The notes beneath the pieces are model-generated. The model made no database searches. It had not been told where the DNA came from and was given only the letters and a program-made list of their open reading frames with translations. This document shows positions 1-34,532 of a stretch of 36,801 nucleotides of DNA, piece by piece. Position 1 is the first letter of the stretch. Each line of letters begins with the position of its first letter. The DNA is taken from positions 1 through 36,801 of IMG/VR virus record IMGVR_UViG_3300029957_000022; one strand, written 5' to 3'. This stretch comes from a virus. The position numbers and the translations under genes were made by a program.

Positions 1-599
1 CCCTGATCCGCACGGATCGAAATGTTTTCGTGCCGTGGCTGTCGCGCACCACTGATCGTTACCGGCCGCCGTATGGTATCATGTTGCAGGAGTCGCCACG
101 GCGCTGCGTGTTCGGCGGAACGTGGAACCCGGATAACACCGGGCTGTTCGATGATCCTACCGGCGCGCGGCGGTACTGGCCCGTGACCTGCACGGAAATA
201 AATCTGGAGTGCATACGCGAGACGCGGGACCAGCTCTGGGCCGAAGCCATCGCCAGATATAAGGCGGGGGAAAAATGGTGGTTGTCGAACCAGGAAGAAA
301 TTGCCGAGGCCGTCAATGAGCAGAGCCTACGCGAAGCCGATGATACTTGGGGTGAGCTGATCGACAGTGAGTTGCATGGCGTCACCAGAATTACGATCAA
401 CGATATTCTGTCGAAAATCGGTGTACCGATTGAGAAAAGAGACCGGCGCTGCGAACGCCGCGTTGGGCATCACATGCGCCGCATCGGATGGACCAGAAAG
501 AAAATGCGGCCCAGCGCGTATAAATCACCGATCTGGTATTTCATCAACCCCGATTGCCTGGGGCTGGAGATCGAAGAGCTGGAGCGCCTCAATCAGTGA
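1..599 (+). CDS. VapE-family phage primase/helicase, C-terminal part (5' truncated)
   Basis: The frame is open from position 3 at the left edge, so only the last 199 or so residues are present. Near its start the protein reads LSRTTDRYRPPYG, followed by a stretch with GTWNPDNTGLFDDPTGARR and YWPV. This pattern (a 'GT-N...D-TG-RR-WPV' loop after the Walker motifs) is typical of virulence-associated protein E (VapE), a superfamily 3-like helicase domain used in phage and island DNA replication. The ATP-binding part lies outside the window. The C-terminal 90 residues are basic and look like a DNA-binding or winged-helix tail. A GTG at position 30 is an internal codon, not a likely start. The gene converges with the leftward nuclease gene and their ends overlap by about 75 bp. 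Confidence 0.8.
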   Translation, partial: LIRTDRNVFVPWLSRTTDRYRPPYGIMLQESPRRCVFGGTWNPDNTGLFDDPTGARRYWPVTCTEINLECIRETRDQLWAEAIARYKAGEKWWLSNQEEIAEAVNEQSLREADDTWGELIDSELHGVTRITINDILSKIGVPIEKRDRRCERRVGHHMRRIGWTRKKMRPSAYKSPIWYFINPDCLGLEIEELERLNQ

Positions 600-3193: not shown

Positions 3194-3794
3194 GCTGCGC
3201 CACGCGGCGTTTGATCTCGAAATAAATCCGCAGCGCGGCCATCGTATCGTTCAGCGCGTCATGCGCGCCAACAATCTGTTCACCAAAAAAAAACTGATAA
3301 GCCTCGGCAAGTTTTGGAACCTTCGGCGTCTGGTGTAATCCGGCCAAGACCATTTTATCGGTCGGTGGCAGGTTGACGATATCGGCCGAGTTGCGCTGCG
3401 TACAAAAATGTTCACGGCCGTCGAACAGATCGTTAGCGTGAGAGATGCCGAGGCGGAGTTTTGCCATCTTGACTATGTTTACGTCGAACCCGATGTTGTG
3501 ACCCACCAGAACGTCGCTGCGCGCGATCATGGAATAAAGCATGGTTACGGCCGTGATCGGTTTGACGCCGAAGCGATGCACACGTTCCTGCGTGATGCCG
3601 TGCGCCGCTAGAGCGCCAGCCTCGATGGGAACACCGGGGTTCACCAAAAAATTAATCGATGATTGCACGTTTGCGTTTTCGTCCATCATCACGGCCGCGA
3701 TCTGCACTGGCCAGGGTTGCGCGGGATCGTCGGGTGGAAGGTCCATATTCGGAAAGCCGGTGGTTTCCGTATCGAATCCAAGAACGGCGGTCAT
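3186..3794 (-). CDS. DnaQ-like DEDDh 3'-5' exonuclease
   Basis: 202 residues. The three exonuclease motifs are visible: FDTETTG (D8, E10), GHNIGFDVNI (D104) and AHDALNDTMA with H178 and D183, which is the DEDDh pattern of the DNA polymerase III epsilon and RNase T group. Such proteins remove nucleotides from 3' ends of DNA or RNA. The ATG at 3794 overlaps the stop of the HTH gene as ATGA; an upstream in-frame ATG at 3830 lies inside the HTH gene and is less likely. No polymerase or BRCT domain is attached. In this operon it probably trims ends during replication or repair alongside the helicase. Confidence 0.88.
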   Translation of the reverse strand: MTAVLGFDTETTGFPNMDLPPDDPAQPWPVQIAAVMMDENANVQSSINFLVNPGVPIEAGALAAHGITQERVHRFGVKPITAVTMLYSMIARSDVLVGHNIGFDVNIVKMAKLRLGISHANDLFDGREHFCTQRNSADIVNLPPTDKMVLAGLHQTPKVPKLAEAYQFFFGEQIVGAHDALNDTMAALRIYFEIKRRVAQHV

Positions 3795-4024: not shown

Positions 4025-4053
4025 AATATCCTGTATTTCCGGGGTTTTGTCAA
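4025..4053 (-). promoter_or_regulatory. Leftward promoter of the regulator operon
   Basis: On the minus strand a perfect -35 TTGACA (4053-4048) is followed after 17 bp by GATATT (4030-4025). The predicted +1 is base 4018, the A of the regulator's ATG, so the transcript would be leaderless. The -35 lies inside the 18-bp dyad at 4045-4062, so binding there should block this promoter. Confidence 0.7.
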
Positions 4054-4062
4054 TCGACAAAA
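4045..4062. promoter_or_regulatory. Operator dyad, copy 1 (TTTTGTC-AATC-GACAAAA)
   Basis: Perfect 7-bp inverted arms around 4 bp. It lies between the divergent regulator and recombination operons, overlaps the leftward -35 and ends 7 bp before the rightward -35. The same arms recur at 32779-32796 and 33876-33893 with different spacers. I infer it is the binding site of the HTH protein encoded at 3791-4018. Confidence 0.75.
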
Positions 4063-8552: not shown

Positions 8553-9206
8553 CTAGACCAAGTTATGTAAAATCTTCATCACACCGACCAGCGCCGCGAG
8601 GCTGGCGCTCCAGCCGGCCGCCACGCCGATCTCGCCCCAGCCAGCGGAATACGCGGGGGTTCCCCAGATACCAAACGGCACGAATTTACCCACCAGATAG
8701 GCCACTGGCTGCGATACGGCCGCGATAGCGGCTGCCGCCGCCGCCAGCAGGATTGGGCCACCCACGGACGGCAGGAACAGCCCGGCGCCGTACAGCGCGG
8801 CCGAGCTGAGACCATAAACGATGACACCGCGAAACACGCCGACCGACAGCATCCCGAAAAAATCATAGGTGGTGCGGGCGCAGGATGACATGCCATCCCA
8901 TTGTGCCTGGGTGAGCGTCGGCATCCAGAACGCCGGCCAATCCTTCTGCGGCGACGGCCAGCGGCCCATATTCTGGTACGCGGCATGTGGGATCAGCATG
9001 GCAATGAATTGCAAAATGAACAGCAATGCAACCAAAGGAATGTTGACGGCCGGGGCTGCCAGAAAAACATAGCCGAGGGTAAAACTTGCGGCCCAGATCA
9101 AGCGCGCGGAGGTGGTGCCGTATGCCGATGAGCCGACAGGAAAACCGTTCCTGAGCCAATGGTACGAAAAAATCAAAAATGCAGTCACGAAGAAGAAAAT
9201 TATCAT
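8553..9206 (-). CDS. Polytopic phage membrane protein
   Basis: 217 residues with about five hydrophobic segments: the N-terminal MIIFFFVTAFLIFSY, two around residues 36-70 (LIWAASFTLGYVFLAAP; IPLVALLFILQFIAML), and two or three in the C-terminal half, including the alanine-rich GGPILLAAAAAAIAAV. A central soluble loop holds YDFFGMLSVG. The start overlaps the i-spanin stop as ATGA, so it is coupled to the lysis cassette. I do not recognise the family. It could be a holin-like or superinfection-exclusion protein; position favours a lysis role. Confidence 0.65.
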   Translation of the reverse strand: MIIFFFVTAFLIFSYHWLRNGFPVGSSAYGTTSARLIWAASFTLGYVFLAAPAVNIPLVALLFILQFIAMLIPHAAYQNMGRWPSPQKDWPAFWMPTLTQAQWDGMSSCARTTYDFFGMLSVGVFRGVIVYGLSSAALYGAGLFLPSVGGPILLAAAAAAIAAVSQPVAYLVGKFVPFGIWGTPAYSAGWGEIGVAAGWSASLAALVGVMKILHNLV

Positions 9207-9799
9207 GGCGTTGCTACTGCCTGAAGTTTTGAAATTTGCTGGATATTTTCGGCGCAGATCGAGTCATGCTCGAACATCTGGCCGATCCAATGCGCGATCA
9301 GTTGATCTGCGGCACCGGGGGTTGTGGCGGGATGGTTAGCAGTTCCACCGGAATTGTCAGGCGCTCCACCTGGATTTTTTGCTCCGGCAGCACTTCCGGT
9401 TTGCAGGTTCCGCAGCCCGTCAACCATAGCAATGATAGCAGAAGGCAGACACACCGTTGGCTTCGCATGGGATACCTCGCTTTGTAATCTGGCAAGGTCC
9501 GTGGCCAGTTTCACGTTGTTGTCGTTTTTTTCTTTCAGCGCCGCCTCATTATCGATCATCTGTTTTTTTAACAGCGCCGCGTCCGCCGCATTTTGATTGG
9601 CGATGGCGACAGAATTTTTGAGATTTACGTTTGCCGTATCGAGGCTGGCGTTAAGGGCCGTGATAGTCGTCGCTCGATTGTGCAGAGCTATTCCCATCCA
9701 TGTTAGGGTCACGACCAGCGCCAGGGTCGCAATCCCGATTAGAATCCACTTTGCGTCTGAAAAAGTTGGCACCGATGCTCCCGTTTCTAATGTTGTCAT
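9203..9799 (-). CDS. i-spanin (Rz-like), inner-membrane component
   Basis: 198 residues from the ATG at 9799. One N-terminal membrane segment (ILIGIATLALVVTLTWMGIAL) is followed by a long heptad-like periplasmic helix (about residues 40-115) with many Asn, Asp, Lys and Leu, then a Pro/Gly/Thr-rich stretch and a C-terminal domain with two cysteines overall. This is the Rz i-spanin plan: it bridges the periplasm and fuses inner and outer membranes with its lipoprotein partner. That partner is encoded inside this gene in another frame (9298-9468), the classic nested arrangement. Confidence 0.8.
   Translation of the reverse strand: MTTLETGASVPTFSDAKWILIGIATLALVVTLTWMGIALHNRATTITALNASLDTANVNLKNSVAIANQNAADAALLKKQMIDNEAALKEKNDNNVKLATDLARLQSEVSHAKPTVCLPSAIIAMVDGLRNLQTGSAAGAKNPGGAPDNSGGTANHPATTPGAADQLIAHWIGQMFEHDSICAENIQQISKLQAVATP
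9298..9468 (-). CDS. o-spanin (Rz1-like) outer-membrane lipoprotein, nested
   Basis: 56 residues from ATG 9468: a basic MRSQR start, hydrophobic core CLLLSLLW and the lipobox LTGC with Cys19. The mature 38-residue protein is proline-rich (IPPQPPVPQIN), as Rz1 proteins are. It lies wholly within the i-spanin gene in a different frame of the same strand. The two together make a two-component spanin, which implies a Gram-negative host with an outer membrane. Confidence 0.88.
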   Translation of the reverse strand: MRSQRCVCLLLSLLWLTGCGTCKPEVLPEQKIQVERLTIPVELLTIPPQPPVPQIN

Positions 9800-10022
9800 C
9801 GAGGATCGGTCCAATCGTGTAACCGATGATGACCCACATCATTGCCGACAAAACATCATCGGCTATGGCCTTACGGAGATTATCATCCTTGCCCCAGACG
9901 GTCAAATAAGAGATCAGGGCCGCCGTAAAAATAAGGGACAGGAAAACAACCCTGCGCCTGTATTTCCAGCGATCAAGCGACTCCTGCTGATCCGAACGGG
10001 GTGAGTTTGTAGGCTTGTTCAT
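9651..10022 (-). CDS. Holin-like two-segment membrane protein
   Basis: 123 residues from ATG 10022. A charged N-terminus (KPTNSPRSDQQESLDRWKYRRR) precedes a hydrophobic segment VVFLSLIFTAALISYLTVW, a short charged loop (GKDDNLRKAIADD) and a second segment AMMWVIIGYTIGPIL. Two segments close together, next to a lysin gene, suggest a holin. The gene overlaps the lysin gene by 50 bp and the i-spanin gene by 149 bp; the tail overlapping the i-spanin is polar and Asp/Gly/Ser-rich, as expected for a frame not free to evolve. Holin identity is inferred from position and topology. Confidence 0.6.
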   Translation of the reverse strand: MNKPTNSPRSDQQESLDRWKYRRRVVFLSLIFTAALISYLTVWGKDDNLRKAIADDVLSAMMWVIIGYTIGPILDDNIRNGSIGANFFRRKVDSNRDCDPGAGRDPNMDGNSSAQSSDDYHGP

Positions 10023-25989: not shown

Positions 25990-26856
25990 TCAACTTATAA
26001 GTTTTAACATCTCGGAAAACGCCTCGCACGGTGCGTTCACTCCGTCCGCAAAACCGACCTCAACACCAGCCGCGCCGTAAAAACACGCGGCCTCTGTTTC
26101 ACGCACCTTTTTGGCCGATATTCCGCGATTTCGCGCCACGGTTTCGACGAATAATTTACCAGTTTCGTTGACCATTTCCTGGAGCTTTTTCAGGCCGTCG
26201 CTGGACAGCGGCTCGATCTCATTTCCGTCCACCTTCCGCGCGCCGTAATGCACCATCGTGACTCGCATTCCTTCTTTTTCGAGTCGCGCCGATTGGTCAA
26301 CGTGCATCGCCACCACGCCGACCGATCCCGTCATACCCGTGCGCGGCACGGTCACAACATCACACGCAGACGCAATCGCGTATGCCGCGCTGCATGCCAT
26401 CTCGCTGAGGATCGCCATCATCGGTTTTTCGCCGCGCATGGAATAAATTTCATCCACCAGATCGAAACACCCAGCGACTTCACCGCCGCCGCTATCGATA
26501 TCGAAAACGATTCCTTTGACCTGAGCATCGTTCAGCGCGGCAGAAAAATTATGCCGGATCGCATCGTAACCCGTCATCCCACTCATGGGATAAAGATATC
26601 CGTTTTTATGCACCAGCGTTCCAGTTACCGGAATAATCGCCACGCCCTGCTCGATATCGTAACCGACTTCTTTTGGTCCAGCGTGAACATTCGACGCGAT
26701 GGACCCTTGCAACTGAATCACGGTTCCGTCCGCGCGCTCCAACTGCGAAATTCCAAAGCGGCCGGAAAGAACAGACACGATTATTTCGGCTTTCTCCGGC
26801 AAGATGGCGACCGGCACGTTGAACATGCGCTGCGCGATATGCGGTAAATGGATCAT
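25990..26856 (-). CDS. S49-family prohead protease (lambda gpC-like)
   Basis: 288 residues. The fold markers are IIPVTGTL, GIVFDIDSGGGEVAG (119-129), LSEMACSAAYAIAS (catalytic Ser156 by analogy with SppA/gpC) and GARKVDGNE (Lys208, the likely general base). The N-terminal 60 residues are phage-specific. It matures the prohead by cutting scaffold and portal. The ATG overlaps the portal stop by ATGA. Unlike many relatives it has no fused scaffold domain; that part is the next gene. Confidence 0.9.
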   Translation of the reverse strand: MIHLPHIAQRMFNVPVAILPEKAEIIVSVLSGRFGISQLERADGTVIQLQGSIASNVHAGPKEVGYDIEQGVAIIPVTGTLVHKNGYLYPMSGMTGYDAIRHNFSAALNDAQVKGIVFDIDSGGGEVAGCFDLVDEIYSMRGEKPMMAILSEMACSAAYAIASACDVVTVPRTGMTGSVGVVAMHVDQSARLEKEGMRVTMVHYGARKVDGNEIEPLSSDGLKKLQEMVNETGKLFVETVARNRGISAKKVRETEAACFYGAAGVEVGFADGVNAPCEAFSEMLKLIS

Positions 26857-29098: not shown

Positions 29099-29440
29099 TC
29101 AGCTCCCTACCTCTTCATTGGTTCCTTCCCACAAAAATTGGGAGACCGGAAAATAATCACCGCAGCCGCAGCAGAAAGTCGATCCATAATACTTCGGATT
29201 TTTCGCGTATGTCTCGGCACACGCCATTGGCATCCGAGTATTCGTGTTGCATTTCTTGTGGACGTAATTTTTTCTCAGCGGTCGCACATGACCATTTTTT
29301 CTGTCCTCTTCCGGCAATGTCCAATGATCCTTTTTTTGACCGTCAGGCAATTTTTCATCGGTAGGAGCCGAGCATGACGTATCCAACTGCGGATCGCGGC
29401 CGCTGACAGTAACTTTTGATGGTCTCGGTTCGCCGGTCAT
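29099..29440 (-). CDS. Cysteine-rich packaging-region protein, unrecognised
   Basis: 113 residues. The N-terminal 45 residues are polar. After VHKKCNTNTRMPMACAETYA come KNPKYYGSTFCCGCGDYFP and a final FLWEGTNEEVGS. The four or five cysteines with C-x2-C spacing suggest a zinc knuckle. Proteins ending in this 'TYA-NP-FYGATFC--C---FPV-EF-W-GT---VG' way occur in many phages and remain uncharacterised. Its start overlaps the large terminase stop by ATGA, so it may help DNA packaging or bind DNA. Confidence 0.65.
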   Translation of the reverse strand: MTGEPRPSKVTVSGRDPQLDTSCSAPTDEKLPDGQKKDHWTLPEEDRKNGHVRPLRKNYVHKKCNTNTRMPMACAETYAKNPKYYGSTFCCGCGDYFPVSQFLWEGTNEEVGS

Positions 29441-31518
29441 GGGAGCATGTCGCTGATGGATTTCTTTTTCGGTTGCTGCGTGATGATCTTAACACCCGAA
29501 TCAGTGGCCGGCTTCCCGGATTCCTTTTGAACCTGCTCCAAACTCGAAATATTTTCCACTGGAATCAGAAAACTGTTCTCGGCCCAAGGCGCGGCCCAGG
29601 GCGGCGGACGATCCCATTTTATCTGCGAAACCCCATGTAAATGCGCGATTACATGCGTCATAACCATCAAATCGAGGGCTTCATTCCGCGCCCCCTTGTT
29701 GACTTTCTGCCACTTTCCAAGCGGATCGCGCACCTCGGCCACCAACTGCTCGAACCACGGATGCGGCGGCGCTTTGTTCGCCAGCGATTTTGGAAAATGC
29801 ACATACCACGGACCTTCATCGGCTTTCTGGAGCTGGCCGTTCAGCTCATCCTTAAAAATATTCGGGTTGAACATCGCAACCGGCACGATACCTTTACTCG
29901 CGGCGCGCTGTTTATTTCCAGATGTGTCGGGATAATTCACGCTGAGTTTCTTCGCCATGACGCTGTTCGCGCCCTTCATCGGCAGCGCGGACCACGCTTC
30001 CTTGTCATTTATCAGGCCGTAATTTCGCACCAGACCACGGTCTTTCCAGCGCATCCATGCGTCATACGCTTGTCGCGTCACACCTGGCAGACCGCCTGAA
30101 TCCCAACCTATCCCCCTTATTGGCATCGCCAACTGCGAATTTTCCGCCAGCGGATACGCGCGGCGCAGCAGCAGGTCGATCATTTCGTCCCAACATTTTG
30201 GATCAGTCGCCGGGTCGCCGTGAACCCTAAACTTATCCACCACCCAGCTTTCCGCGCCTATGCCCCAGCCGCGCACCAACACATCAAAATGCGCCACCTG
30301 AATATCGAAGGCAGCCGTCAAAAAACGGACTCCTTCGGGAACGGTTTTCAGGTGCAGCATCTCTTCACTGCGCGCCGCAAGGTCATTCGCCGTCACGCTG
30401 CCGTACGCGCGCGGCGGCGTATATGGGATACCGAATTGCTTGACCATGACCTGCTTCAGCGTCTCATCCTCGCCGCTGACTTCGTATTCGCGCTCCGCCT
30501 TCACCTTGGCGCGCGCCAGCGCGCCGATCCCGCCGAGGATAAACGGCGACATGGTGCCGACGATCCAGAATCCGGCCGTGCTGCGCTTCACACGCTCACC
30601 AGTTATGACTCCTTCAACCGATATCGACTGCCCGGTGCCTACCCAAACGCCGGTTTGATTCATCTCCAGGCGCTCACGATCCGTGATCGCGCAGCCGTTC
30701 ACGGGACACATCAGCACGGTGGTTTCCTGAATTTCATCCAGCGTTCCATCGACCGGATAGTGCAAATCCATAAAACGATCAGCCAGCGGGCAGGGCGACG
30801 AATACGCGGAGCAGTGCGGGCATTTCCAGTACCAAATTCTGCGGTCGCTATCGGCGTACACGCCCATCACGCCGTTGCTCCAATCCTTGTCAGGATTCAT
30901 GCCGCGCGCGCGATCAGGATGGCTTGTCACCAGCATTTTTGATTCATTACCGAAGGTCTGCCGGCGCACATCCAGCATCGGCTTTACGTTGCCGAGGCTT
31001 TCCGGGTATGCGTCGATTTCGTCAGCGACGATGCGCGGCGCGGATTTATTAATCAGGTTGGACGGCGTGGCCGACAGAAATTCGATCTGCATCACGCGAA
31101 AATTTTTGAAGTGCAGGCTGTCATCCGTCGATTTTCTACCCACGGCATCGCACAAAAATTTATGATTCTGGATCATCGGATTGATGCGGCTTTTTACATA
31201 CGCCTCTAAGCTGTCATCCGTCTGCATGAACCACAAAAAATTACCGGGGTTCGCCTCGATGGAACGCATCAGCCAGTTTTCACCGATGGTAGTTTTTCCG
31301 CTTTGCCCAGGCCCAACAATCGCTATCGTTTGAATGTTGAAATTATCCAGCTCATCCATCGGCTCGATGAGGTATGGAACCATGCTGTTGTCCCAGCGCC
31401 CAACGTGGCCACCACCTTCGTTATACAGCCAGCGGTACTTTTCAGAGAAACTGGAAACAGACAGGCGCTCTTTCGGCCGGAAATATTCTAGGATTATATT
31501 TTGATCTGCATCCCACAT
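29437..31518 (-). CDS. Terminase large subunit (lambda gpA family)
   Basis: 693 residues. The packaging ATPase has Walker A GPGQSGKT (69-76) and Walker B IVADEID (163-169). A cysteine-rich CPHCSAY ... CPVNGC element at about 240-285 is also typical of gpA, and the nuclease part begins with LTAAFDIQVAHFDVLVRGWG, where the aspartate binds metal. It cuts concatemers and drives DNA into the prohead. The gpA type implies cohesive ends or lambda-like cutting rather than Mu-like random cutting, by family inference only. Its ATG is directly after the small subunit stop. Confidence 0.93.
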   Translation of the reverse strand: MWDADQNIILEYFRPKERLSVSSFSEKYRWLYNEGGGHVGRWDNSMVPYLIEPMDELDNFNIQTIAIVGPGQSGKTTIGENWLMRSIEANPGNFLWFMQTDDSLEAYVKSRINPMIQNHKFLCDAVGRKSTDDSLHFKNFRVMQIEFLSATPSNLINKSAPRIVADEIDAYPESLGNVKPMLDVRRQTFGNESKMLVTSHPDRARGMNPDKDWSNGVMGVYADSDRRIWYWKCPHCSAYSSPCPLADRFMDLHYPVDGTLDEIQETTVLMCPVNGCAITDRERLEMNQTGVWVGTGQSISVEGVITGERVKRSTAGFWIVGTMSPFILGGIGALARAKVKAEREYEVSGEDETLKQVMVKQFGIPYTPPRAYGSVTANDLAARSEEMLHLKTVPEGVRFLTAAFDIQVAHFDVLVRGWGIGAESWVVDKFRVHGDPATDPKCWDEMIDLLLRRAYPLAENSQLAMPIRGIGWDSGGLPGVTRQAYDAWMRWKDRGLVRNYGLINDKEAWSALPMKGANSVMAKKLSVNYPDTSGNKQRAASKGIVPVAMFNPNIFKDELNGQLQKADEGPWYVHFPKSLANKAPPHPWFEQLVAEVRDPLGKWQKVNKGARNEALDLMVMTHVIAHLHGVSQIKWDRPPPWAAPWAENSFLIPVENISSLEQVQKESGKPATDSGVKIITQQPKKKSISDMLP

Positions 31519-32127
31519 TTACTCACCGGGTTTTTCCGGCGCAAAAATTGCCTCGCTGTCATTCACAAACGCGGAGCGCGCCTGGTCCATATTATCCCGC
31601 AACATGCGGATCACATCGTCGGGCAGACCCATTTTTTTCCCTATAAGGTTCGGCATCATGTCGAGCTGCTTTGCCAGCCGCGCCACAAGAACGCTCATGC
31701 GCCCGATTATATCCTCGCGCTCGACCAGCACACCCATTTTTTTATCCAGCTCTAGCTGGAGTAATTTTGTTTGAACAACCCCCTTATTGTCGCGCGACAA
31801 TAAATCCTCGCGGATTTTCTGCGCGCTTAACGGCAGATCATCTTCCTTGGTTCCTACATTTATTTGGCGCTTCAGCGCGCTGGCGGTCGGCTGACGTTCA
31901 CCGCGATACCATGTATTCTTTTTCAGCCATTCATCGACATGCTCCCAATTAAATTCCCAGCCGTGTTTTGTACCGCCAGTTTTCACGCGCGGAAAATCTA
32001 TATACCGAGCCACGGTTGCGCGGATCGTTTTTCTGTCAACGCCATAGCGATCCGACGCCTCCAGCAAACTTCCTGTCAGCCGAACCTCATCTTCAGGGCC
32101 ATATGATTTTCTACTGCGACGATTCAT
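31519..32127 (-). CDS. Terminase small subunit (Nu1-like)
   Basis: 202 residues. A winged-helix-like N-terminus (VRLTGSLLEASDRYGVDRKT, then W-FNWEHVDEWLKKN) resembles the Nu1 DNA-binding domain with its MerR-like wing. A middle linker is followed by a helix-rich REDLLSRDNKGVVQTKLLQL and DKKMGVLVEREDIIGRMSVL, the usual 'lV-r-ev---' pattern of small terminases. It recognises the packaging site and recruits the large subunit. It overlaps the gene before by ATGA. Confidence 0.82.
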   Translation of the reverse strand: MNRRSRKSYGPEDEVRLTGSLLEASDRYGVDRKTIRATVARYIDFPRVKTGGTKHGWEFNWEHVDEWLKKNTWYRGERQPTASALKRQINVGTKEDDLPLSAQKIREDLLSRDNKGVVQTKLLQLELDKKMGVLVEREDIIGRMSVLVARLAKQLDMMPNLIGKKMGLPDDVIRMLRDNMDQARSAFVNDSEAIFAPEKPGE

Positions 32128-32759
32128 TTTGCGGTTGCCAAAGCACGATCCATAGATTCGCTCATCACAGCATCCACATTTTTATCGACGATTTTTTGCG
32201 CGCGGTCGAAGTAATGGAGCTGCTGATGCACCACTTTTGGATCAGCAAACCGGATCAAAATTTTGAGGCGCTTACCACCTTTGCCGCCCTTCAATCTCTG
32301 GAACACGCCACCGATGCGCGATCCATTTTTCAATTTTATCTCGCCGGAAAAAACTGTGGGCTGCGCTTTTAGCGCCTTTATTTTTCCGCGTGGGATATTG
32401 CCGTACTGGTTCACGCCTATGCCAATCGGCCGCAGCATGGCGACATGCGAAGGGCCGGCCGGAATTTCTGCGCCGGTAAACTCGTATGGCTCCAGATATT
32501 CCGCCTGGATATCTTTGACAAAAACCACAGCCTCCAGCCGATTTTTATTTGATGGGATAAATGAAACGCCGCGCTTCGTGAACGGCGTTGCTGTTGGGAA
32601 TGTTTCGCTGATCTCTTCCGCTTCGCCTTCCACCACCATTTTTGCGAGACGATTAAGCGTCAAGGATGCGGCGTACGGCATCTGTTTTGTTGCGAAGTCA
32701 TTTAGCTCCGCAGCAAACGCATCGAGGTTAGATTTTATGCTGATTTCAAAATCGCTCAT
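32124..32759 (-). CDS. First gene of the late region, unrecognised 211-residue phage protein
   Basis: N-terminus MSDFEISIKSNLDAFAAELN, then KQMPYAASLTLNRLAKMVVE and a run of basic beta-rich segments (FTKRGVSFIPSNKNRLEAVV; LKGGKGGKRLKILIRFADPK) and a helical end. The 'MPYAASLALN--A' pattern also occurs in phage minor tail proteins of the gpZ type, so a head-tail or tail role is possible though it sits upstream of the terminase. The ATG is one base after the predicted transcription start, so the mRNA is likely leaderless. It overlaps the small terminase by ATGA. Confidence 0.6.
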   Translation of the reverse strand: MSDFEISIKSNLDAFAAELNDFATKQMPYAASLTLNRLAKMVVEGEAEEISETFPTATPFTKRGVSFIPSNKNRLEAVVFVKDIQAEYLEPYEFTGAEIPAGPSHVAMLRPIGIGVNQYGNIPRGKIKALKAQPTVFSGEIKLKNGSRIGGVFQRLKGGKGGKRLKILIRFADPKVVHQQLHYFDRAQKIVDKNVDAVMSESMDRALATAK

Positions 32760-32766
32760 GCCGGTG

Positions 32767-32794
32767 ATTATACAGAATTTTTGTCGAAAGACAA
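32767..32794 (-). promoter_or_regulatory. Late-region leftward promoter
   Basis: A perfect -10 TATAAT (32772-32767, minus strand) with TTGTCT 16 bp upstream (32794-32789). The predicted +1 is 32760, one base before the ATG at 32759. The -35 overlaps operator copy 2. Confidence 0.65.
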
Positions 32795-32796
32795 AA
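32779..32796. promoter_or_regulatory. Operator dyad, copy 2 (TTTTGTC-GAAA-GACAAAA)
   Basis: Same perfect 7-bp arms as at 4045-4062, with spacer GAAA. It overlaps the -35 of the late promoter, so occupation would be expected to shut off the packaging, head, tail and lysis genes. Confidence 0.75.
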
Positions 32797-32867
32797 TATC
32801 GTTCCCGCGCGCGGCGAGGAAAAGCACCAAAAAGAACACTAACTTTTACGCTAACATCATCACTGCT

Positions 32868-33274
32868 AGGTCAACAAATAGGTCAACAGAGAAGTTGTTG
32901 ATCTATAAAGTGAATTTCGGAAAGTAATGCTGAAAGTATTTTTTGTTGACCTTCCAAACGCAAAACTCTCGTAATAGATTCAGAGTCACGACTCCATAAT
33001 AGTACGTTACTACGGGTACAGACTCCTTATATAACTTCAAATTATCTAATAGTGGAACAAACATTAGAACTAATATACTTTCATTATAAATTACAACAAG
33101 TTACAACATGTTGACCTTTGTGTTGACCTATAGTTAAAGGTCAACGTGAAATGTATATAAATCATATAGTTATATATAATTACAAATAAATTACACTATA
33201 AAACTAGTGGTACAACATTGAAATATATAATGAAAGTATTTTTATAAATCACCTTTTCAGCTCGGAAGGTCAAC
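32868..33274. repeat. Iteron-like array of AGGTCAAC
   Basis: Seven exact octamers: forward at 32868, 32880, 33138 and 33267; inverted (GTTGACCT) at 32945, 33110 and 33122. A further copy with one mismatch is at 32897. The pairs 32868/32880 and 33110/33122 both have a 12-bp period. Copies 33122-33129 and 33138-33145 form an inverted repeat with an 8-bp spacer. Such an array suggests binding sites for a replication initiator or a second regulator. Confidence 0.75.
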
Positions 33275-33305
33275 GTGGTTTCCTGAAAAATCAATGACAT
33301 AGTTT

Positions 33306-33327
33306 TTCTGGTATTTTATTACCAGAA
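33306..33327. repeat. 8-bp stem-loop in the control region
   Basis: TTCTGGTA (33306-33313) and TACCAGAA (33320-33327) around TTTTAT. A T-run follows on the plus strand (ATTTT) and an A/T tract flanks it on the other side, so it could be a weak bidirectional terminator or an origin hairpin. Confidence 0.45.
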
Positions 33328-33392
33328 TTTTGTCGGATCAATAACCACGGGAAAAACAAAAAATGGCGGTTTAGAGCCAAAAATTAGTTAAC

Positions 33393-33409
33393 TGCCTAAA
33401 TAATAGGCA
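33393..33409. promoter_or_regulatory. Palindrome TGCCTA-AATAA-TAGGCA, copy 1
   Basis: Perfect 6-bp arms with a 5-bp AT spacer. A second copy with the same arms is 139 bp away at 33532. Likely a protein-binding dyad distinct from the TTTTGTC operator. Confidence 0.6.
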
Positions 33410-33449
33410 ACTTGTCCACGAAATAAAATTGCGCGGCAGTCAGGATTTT

Positions 33450-33470
33450 CGCGGGCGCGAAAGACCCGCG
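33450..33470. repeat. GC-rich hairpin in AT-rich region
   Basis: CGCGGG (33450-33455) and CCCGCG (33465-33470) around CGCGAAAGA. It marks a short GC-rich island that stands out from the AT-rich surroundings. Confidence 0.4.
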
Positions 33471-33531
33471 TCGCTTGCGGGGCCGGGGAAGGACCCTTTT
33501 GTTTATATATATCAATGTCTTAGATGGTGTG

Positions 33532-33548
33532 TGCCTAATAAATAGGCA
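33532..33548. promoter_or_regulatory. Palindrome TGCCTA-ATAAA-TAGGCA, copy 2
   Basis: Same arms and spacer length as the copy at 33393-33409. Two copies of one palindrome in 160 bp are not expected by chance and suggest a cooperative binding site. Confidence 0.6.
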
Positions 33549-33563
33549 GACGATTGATGATGT

Positions 33564-33688
33564 ATCAAGTAATGATGATAGTATAAGTGATTGATATCAT
33601 TATATAAATAGAGATTGTATTATATACTTGACAATGAATACACAATATAAACAGCTTTATATTGAATAAAGAAATGTCATTACTTGAT
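33564..33688. repeat. 12-bp inverted repeat ATCAAGTAATGA
   Basis: ATCAAGTAATGA at 33564-33575 is repeated inverted as TCATTACTTGAT at 33677-33688, flanked by more GATGAT-type sequence. It could form a long-range loop or be two binding sites. Confidence 0.4.
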
Positions 33689-33839
33689 GATGATATCAGC
33701 GCCATGACCAGCCGCAACACGTCACAAGATATCCCCCAGCATGGCAGCACGGCAGCACCATGACAGGCGGCGGCAGCGCATGACAACGCATAGGCGGCAA
33801 GCATAGGCCCGTGGCGTGTATATATAACAAGGTATGGCG

Positions 33840-33858
33840 GGGGATAATCTGGGGATAA
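33840..33858 (-). other. Two DnaA-box-like sites
   Basis: On the minus strand TTATCCCCA (33858-33850) and TTATCCC (33847-33841) stand close together. The first differs at one base from the DnaA-box consensus form TTATCCACA. This is weak support for an origin. Confidence 0.3.
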
Positions 33859-33875
33859 CGAAAGATTGTTGCGTT

Positions 33876-33893
33876 TTTTGTCTATCGACAAAA
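33876..33893. promoter_or_regulatory. Operator dyad, copy 3 (TTTTGTC-TATC-GACAAAA)
   Basis: Same arms as copies 1 and 2, with spacer TATC. It lies 6 bp before a possible -35 TTGCAA (33900-33905), 37 bp upstream of the nearest ATG and 73 bp upstream of the first well-supported start of the rightward operon. The -10 there is not clear (TATCAT at 33927-33932 is one candidate, with a 21-bp spacing). Confidence 0.75.
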
Positions 33894-33966
33894 TACCGCT
33901 TGCAACGTGTTAGTGATGGTGTTAGTTATCATGTTAGAAGATCAGAACGGAAACGAGGCCACAAAA

Positions 33967-34152
33967 ATGCAAATCGATCAGATCAAACCCGGCGACTTAG
34001 TTACATGGAATGAGGCGAGGGCTACGGCAATATTCCGGGTTGTGAAGATTGACGGGAATATGGCGCTTATCCGCCGCGCGGCGCGGGTAGAATATGAGAA
34101 TGGGAATCACTGCAAAGCCTTAATCGAAAACCTTGAACACGCTTGCGTGTAA
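33967..34152 (+). CDS. 61-residue protein, unrecognised (first of the right operon)
   Basis: ATG 33967 is preceded by GAGG at 8 nt. The protein begins MQIDQIKPGDLVTWNEARAT and continues as a small beta-rich domain (FRVVKIDGNMALIRRAARVE), recalling KOW/SH3-like barrels seen in small phage proteins. An ATG at 33931 in the same frame would add 12 residues but has no ribosome site. It begins the right-end operon, downstream of operator copy 3. Function unknown. Confidence 0.6.
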   Translation: MQIDQIKPGDLVTWNEARATAIFRVVKIDGNMALIRRAARVEYENGNHCKALIENLEHACV

Positions 34153-34178
34153 AACAAAAAAGAAAACTGGAGTCGAAC

Positions 34179-34532
34179 ATGAAAAACTTAGCGCAATTTA
34201 GGAAAGCCTTGACGGTAGGAAGCCGCTGGACTTTGGAACACGCCAGCGAAGTTGCGGCGGATTGCCGCGCCGCTTCGCCGCGTGAAGTGGTTCACGTTCA
34301 AAGCAATGCGGTTGCCTTCAGCATTCCCGGCGTTGCCTATAACGGTAACCCATATCAGACCGCAAGCTGGCTCTATTTTGATGGTGCTGGCGGCAAGGCG
34401 AAGTTTTGGGAATTTCCGGATGAAAATACCGCCGTAAAATATTTCAAAGCAATCGACGGCACAGAAGGAAAGAGAGCTGATATAGCGCGAATGATTTACC
34501 GCCGCGCGGTGGATCAACGGAAAGACAAGTAA
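34179..34532 (+). CDS. 117-residue protein, unrecognised
   Basis: ATG 34179 follows TGGAGTCGAAC, an identical leader to that of the next gene. The protein has a short N-terminal helix (KNLAQFRKALTVGSRWTLEH), a beta-rich middle that repeats Phe/Val/Tyr strands (VHVQSNAVAFSIPG, ASWLYFDGAGGKAKFWEFPD) and a helical end (TEGKRADIARMIYRRAVDQR). Basic residues at the ends suggest nucleic-acid contact, but no family is recognised. Confidence 0.6.
   Translation: MKNLAQFRKALTVGSRWTLEHASEVAADCRAASPREVVHVQSNAVAFSIPGVAYNGNPYQTASWLYFDGAGGKAKFWEFPDENTAVKYFKAIDGTEGKRADIARMIYRRAVDQRKDK

Follow-up and report, generated by a model that had tools for sequence, protein, structure and literature searches.

A probable iteron replication origin beside the cos site of a vapE-encoding tailed phage

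Background

Iteron origins served by self-loading helicases are described for the PICI/SaPI rep-ori modules and for SCCmec Cch2, where, in passages of two reports, the helicase carries a C-terminal DNA-binding domain and the origin combines short iterons with an AT-rich region (PMC7581432, PMC6092414). SaPI Rep and SCCmec Cch2 are described in one of these passages as binding their iterons through the C-terminal domains (PMC7581432), and the reported Cch2 iteron is AAGTG. In E. coli PICIs, according to a passage of the other report, sets of iterons on either side of an AT-rich region drive plasmid replication (PMC6092414). The part concerned of a report on a Vibrio satellite describes an initiator of a different kind, RepA_N (PMC7145576).

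Phage P4 is the closest described system in terms of repeat and layout. Its type 1 repeat, which we read from the annotated P4 record because the literature searched offered no usable iteron sequence, is GGTGAACA in 11 of 16 copies, and six copies in mixed orientation are clustered in about 100 bp inside the annotated ori (9086-9809). This ori lies between the divergent early genes (minus strand) and sid (plus strand), away from the gene for the helicase-primase alpha, its repeats being 2.3 kb from the alpha start. Ten annotated type 1 repeats are also found at a second P4 site, crr, on the 3' side of alpha. Short repeats are likewise found at cosB of lambda, where bases 1-190 of the record, between the left end and the nu1 gene, contain three copies of a 7-mer.

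Here we analyze a 36,801-base stretch of viral DNA (IMG/VR record IMGVR_UViG_3300029957_000022), hereafter called the window, in which a first-pass annotation had pointed to an iteron-like array and suggested either a phage replication origin, with the phage VapE protein as partner, or the operator region of a second regulator. In the open-licence literature that we searched, we found no paper that joins VapE with iterons or origins. Our results favor a replication origin of an already known kind, in which an iteron array is served by a self-loading SF3 helicase.

Results

The octamer AGGTCAAC occurs seven times in the window, counting both strands, and every copy lies inside 32868-33274. Together with the near copy AGATCAAC, these repeats form the array of about 400 bp that the first-pass annotation had described, and its account of two tandem pairs at 12-bp spacing, one in each orientation (iterons 1 and 2 on the plus strand, 4 and 5 on the minus strand), and of one inverted pair (iterons 5 and 6) holds (Table 1). 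Its view that chance would yield far fewer copies is also borne out, as only 0.52 copies are expected in the whole window and seven were reached in none of 100 shuffles. Within 32760-33906, the best 8-mer containing all four letters has seven copies against a maximum of four in 1000 Markov resamples. The array is AT-rich, as had been noted, with a GC content of 0.297 compared to 0.537 for the window, and the 100 bp of lowest GC in the whole window (0.15) begin at 33149. Short iterons in both orientations are found together with AT-rich DNA. The site is a divergent gap between the minus-strand late operon (minor tail protein, small and large terminase subunits), which starts at 32759, and small plus-strand early genes, which begin at about 33907-33967.

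Table 1. Features of the array region and of the genes discussed in the text (positions in the window).
Feature	Position	Strand	Remarks
VapE, C-terminal 189 aa (PF05272)	30..599	+	cut by record start; proposed iteron reader
Terminase large subunit, GpA type	29437..31518	-	
Terminase small subunit	31519..32127	-	phrog_141/57
Minor tail protein	32124..32759	-	first late gene; phrog_1924
Palindrome TTTTGTC-N4-GACAAAA	32779..32796	.	probable repressor operator, late operon start
Iteron 1, AGGTCAAC	32868..32875	+	exact copy; L003 alignment agrees 4/8
Iteron 2	32880..32887	+	12 bp from iteron 1; L003 aligned octamer 8/8 identical
Near copy AGATCAAC	32897..32904	-	L003 2/8, not conserved
Iteron 3	32945..32952	-	exact copy; L003 3/8, not conserved
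Iteron 4	33110..33117	-	exact copy; L003 8/8
Iteron 5	33122..33129	-	exact copy, 12 bp from iteron 4; L003 6/8
Iteron 6	33138..33145	+	exact copy, inverted to iteron 5; L003 7/8
AT-rich stretch, GC 0.215	33146..33266	.	candidate unwinding element; includes 33149-33248
Iteron 7	33267..33274	+	exact copy; L003 7/8
Palindrome TGCCTA..ATAGGCA, copy 1	33393..33409	.	also terminator-like, on minus strand
Cos site GGGTCCTTCC...CGCGGGTC	33454..33496	-	pattern 33463-33496 plus 9 bases to presumed strand end
Palindrome TGCCTA..ATAGGCA, copy 2	33532..33548	.	pairs with copy 1
Palindrome TTTTGTC-N4-GACAAAA, copy 2	33876..33893	.	early operon start; putative operator

Single-mismatch forms of the octamer do occur elsewhere in the window. 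One lies at 865, near the vapE end, and three more (TGGTCAAC twice, AGGTCAAA once) fall within 360 bp at 26167-26522, inside a minus-strand open reading frame (25990-26856); this trio is probably due to chance.

Other elements share the gap with the array. The palindrome TTTTGTC-N4-GACAAAA at the late operon start overlaps a promoter-like TTGTCT-16-TATAAT of that operon (32794-32767, minus strand), a third exact copy is located at another gene start (4045-4062), and the same palindrome is present in the relative L128 (at 3009 and 11763). The three copies of the window are probably operators of a phage repressor. The TGCCTA..ATAGGCA palindromes are likewise paired in the relative L003 (2876 and 2932). 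The region also contains a cos site, which the first-pass annotation had missed. The pattern GGGTCCTTCC...CGCGGGTC has 117 matches in IMG/VR, and because 20 of these, representing 15 distinct strings, sit 8-9 bases from a sequence end, we take it to mark cos, with the cut about 9 bases beyond it. The cos at about 33454-33496 is of a widespread type; identity with L003 over 33440-33500 is 0.82, and a slightly looser form of the pattern is absent from all 164 vapE loci collected for the survey described below. A search of NCBIfam returned nothing for seven proteins, and no Rep_3-like initiator, as would be expected for a plasmid-type RepA/Rep_3 origin, was seen in an unsystematic scan of window proteins.

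For the repeats, the first-pass annotation had proposed a check in related phages, and here the array is indeed retained. A search with the minor tail protein led to four close relatives (75-76% identity), and the array region is present in L003, L004, and L005, which keep four exact AGGTCAAC copies in addition to variants (ATGTCAAC and GTGTCAAC in L003). These three contigs are near-identical, and the conservation therefore rests on one independent relative. When the region is aligned with L003, identity is 0.70 at the iteron bases compared to 0.52 at the other bases, a value for the iterons that is equalled by 149 of 5000 random octamer sets. Five of the eight octamers match L003 in 6-8 bases, while three (32868, 32897, and 32945) are poorly conserved. 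A DNA similarity search with 32400-34400 against phage records gave no match. A more distant minor tail homologue (L007, 35% identity), considered as a test of whether array and packaging genes travel together, was uninformative, the gene being in another context.

The relative contig L301 has at its end (2-259) an open reading frame that may resemble part of an IS66-type transposase and, between the array and the minor tail gene (3442-3735), a 97-aa open reading frame that may resemble the DNA-binding part of a transposase.

The window encodes a helicase of the self-loading SF3 family in the form of a VapE fragment, which matches PF05272 with an E value of 6.8e-29 and whose residues from about 103 to 176 form a predicted winged helix. 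In the relative L128, the VapE of which is 76% identical to that of the window, a gene encoding a DnaG-type zinc ribbon comes before vapE, and the VapE protein matches the 7pds chain 'PriRep1 with dsDNA' (E 1.7e-35). Qiao et al. reportedly published a structural paper on self-loading SF3 helicases in 2022. In an AlphaFold2 model based on 51 sequences, the C-terminal ~80 residues fold into three helices plus two paired strands (pLDDT 93-97), and the structural neighbors of this domain are winged-helix proteins with Z scores of 5-6, which may reflect a common arrangement only. The C-terminal domain of VapE is thus predicted, from modeling, to be a DNA-binding winged helix.

Comparison with P4 and with satellites narrows the statement of the first-pass annotation that no phage system with this repeat has been described. 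The P4 type 1 repeat is only one base away from GGTCAACA, and the octamer of the window itself lies beside a helicase gene in streptococcal satellites; the statement is thus correct only in part. The likeness to P4 concerns the repeat and the ori layout. The window differs from P4, a satellite, in showing no second repeat site near vapE, with no exact AGGTCAAC outside the array. It also departs from the strict PICI layout, in which ori lies directly 3' of rep, with no AGGTCAAC found near 599.

An IMG/VR scan for a spaced AGGTCAAC pair gave at least 120 stretches. Among the matches listed, L060, which is Streptococcus satellite phage Javan9, has the only AT-rich, multi-copy array in both orientations outside the window lineage, and this array lies on the 3' side of a gene for a D5_N/DUF5906 helicase. 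Most of the AGGTCAACNNNNAGGTCAAC matches listed had copies in the same orientation, many of them GC-rich and probably coding repeats, and were rejected as relatives. When five of 84 matching records of Streptococcus satellites were examined, AGGTCAAC was found in two and AGGTAACA (8-9 copies) in three, all five arrays occupying the same place 3' of the helicase gene. The arrays of Javan9 and Javan727 resemble that of the window in having the identical octamer (7 and 8 copies, respectively) in both orientations, AT-rich DNA, and one pair at 12-bp spacing, and they differ in lying directly 3' of the helicase gene, which in Javan9 is of the D5_N/DUF5906 type. The satellite feature tables that we inspected assign no function to either array.

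The association of arrays with vapE was surveyed in 164 vapE loci from viral and genome contigs, 97 of which remained after removal of near-duplicates by shared 5-mers. We searched blindly for any 8-mer present at least four times per 400 bp and in both orientations, with a score cut-off of at least 11. As controls we used 101 of the at least 120 loci with the AGGTCAAC-pair pattern, namely those at least 5 kb in length, with L060 omitted and AGGTCAAC-like words masked. Mixed-orientation clusters were found in 52 of the 97 vapE loci, compared to none of 97 shuffled loci and two of the 101 controls, which are shorter (mean 9.7 versus 15.1 kb). Of these clusters, 37 lie from 350 bp upstream to 500 bp downstream of the vapE stop codon, 13 at 0.5-6 kb on its 3' side, and two elsewhere. 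The remaining 45 loci have no such cluster, seven of them offering less than 600 bp 3' of vapE.

The motifs are specific to lineages (CTGGGACA, TGGGAACA, GTTGGTGAC, AGGTGGTAAC, and others) and share a common form. GG-N0-3-AC is present on one strand in 51 of the 52, whereas letter shuffles within the consensus give a mean of 11.2 and a maximum of 20, and AGGTCAAC itself fits this class. Among eight vapE phages picked by hand from 60 of 607 matching records, the cluster starts no more than about 400 bp from the end of the gene in five (LPPA36, PS3, LWP01, phiFL4A, and Adelaide), and no cluster was found near the vapE end in ARB25, Javan100, and RcCWillis. In Listeria weihenstephanensis phage LWP01, whose motif is GTGTCAACA, six copies of GTGTCAAC, resembling the L003 variant, lie just 3' of the VapE gene. 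Covariation between the motif and the C-terminal domain is weak, with a partial r of 0.12 that was reached by 39 of 999 permutations (L145, L243, L219, and L130 omitted).

The GC skew of the window has its minimum at 33.0 kb, at the array, and its maximum at 13 kb, and third-codon skew fits this course. Split at a boundary that was chosen from the skew, the minus-strand genes have values of +0.073 (1-12.5 kb) and -0.043 (12.5-32.8 kb). The skew of the relative G001 tracks the strand of the genes, and its maximum, at 35.2 kb, is not opposite the array. Other vapE arrays (L145, L243, and L219 omitted) have no skew switch, as 14 of 31 are positive at 2.5 kb, which does not exceed the control points. 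Being supportive in the window, but neither in the relative nor at other vapE arrays, the skew is equivocal and was set aside.

Discussion

We consider it likely that the array is a phage replication origin bound by the SF3 helicase VapE. The observations behind this reading are the repeats themselves, the retention of the array by one relative, the VapE fragment, the association of arrays with vapE across the family, and the likeness to the P4 ori motif; the last two in particular support the origin, with VapE as partner, that the first-pass annotation had suggested. By analogy with SaPI Rep and SCCmec Cch2, as described in passages of PMC7581432, and with the E. coli PICIs, as described in passages of PMC6092414, VapE would bind the AGGTCAACA repeats through its C-terminal winged-helix domain, its hexamers would assemble over the interleaved AT-rich DNA and melt it, and replication would start with a separately encoded DnaG-like primase. 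We infer binding, melting, and replication at this site from that parallel, to which the match of the VapE domain to PriRep1 (7pds) adds a further point of likeness. The position is different, as the PICI/SaPI and SCCmec origins lie directly 3' of the helicase gene and the array lies several kilobases away, at the divide between early and late genes. Among vapE elements, a site beside cos in the gap that separates the early from the late operon is unusual, and it matches the layout of the P4 ori. Against an origin stand the position of the array, which in most array-bearing vapE elements is 3' of the gene and here is between cos and the terminase genes, in the place of cosB; the nearly half of the surveyed vapE loci that have no cluster; the weak link between motif and domain; the skew of the relative and of other vapE arrays; and the single independent relative behind the conservation.

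The main rival is that the repeats are a cosB, that is, sites for the small terminase subunit that place terminase at the adjoining cos for packaging, a reading suggested by the position of the array between the cos of this region and the packaging genes. The position is that of lambda cosB, with its three repeats, although the lambda 7-mer is an unrelated word. We nevertheless regard a cosB as unlikely. Of the 92 matches to the cos pattern that offer 500 bp or more on the packaging side, only two have an array (at least four copies, score at least 9), both of them from the window lineage, and five others have isolated AGGTCAAC words, one or two each. Moreover, the array extends from about 180 to about 590 bp from the presumed cut, farther than the 190 bp of lambda; its motif belongs to the vapE/P4 class; and the small terminase subunit is 51% identical between the window and L003, compared to 76% for VapE between the window and L128. 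A search for more homologues of this subunit, made to examine the cosB reading, yielded the window lineage only.

An operator array, through which a phage regulator would govern both divergent promoters, early and late, would suit the intergenic site and the -35-box-like TTGAC inside GTTGACCT. The promoter-like sites that we found do not use the repeats, however, and satellites have the same octamer arrayed on the 3' side of their helicase genes. Transcriptional control, and with it the second-regulator operator of the first-pass annotation, is made less likely because separate operator-like palindromes already occupy both divergent gene starts, with the third at 4045, and we rate it slightly below even the packaging alternative. 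A dual role, with origin iterons that also regulate transcription or packaging and so couple replication, cos cutting, and late transcription, is suggested by the crowding of the array, the AT-rich stretch, cos, and two putative operators into about 1.1 kb; it seems very improbable. That the repeats arose by chance or are decayed and functionless is scarcely credible: the three poorly conserved copies would fit decay, but the copy number far exceeds expectation and the array is kept in a relative.

Returning to an origin read by VapE, what is new is the placement of such an iteron origin next to cos, where early and late genes diverge, in a lineage of tailed phages, together with the breadth of the rule among vapE phages. 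Similar iteron clusters lie at vapE in many of the phage and prophage loci surveyed, and a VapE origin would often be findable from sequence alone. 'Virulence-associated protein E', which is misleadingly named and commonly encoded by phages, would gain a function as an origin-reading initiator helicase, and the GG-N0-3-AC class makes the specificity of helicase for origin directly testable. More broadly, VapE could initiate replication generally in the tailed phages of many bacterial phyla, with a C-terminal winged helix that reads one motif class, GG-N(0-3)-AC(A), in P4 alpha, PICI Rep, and VapE alike, the letters being specific to each lineage; in the present phage, the origin would have moved from behind vapE into a single control region of 1.1 kb that it shares with cos and with the early and late operators, where replication and packaging may be coupled. 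We offer this wider proposal tentatively, with slightly more doubt than confidence.

In a set of vapE loci of the survey that are mainly alphaproteobacterial, such as L278, L182, L289, and L265, the array lies 2-5.5 kb 3' of vapE rather than directly behind it, and the origins would therefore move relative to vapE.
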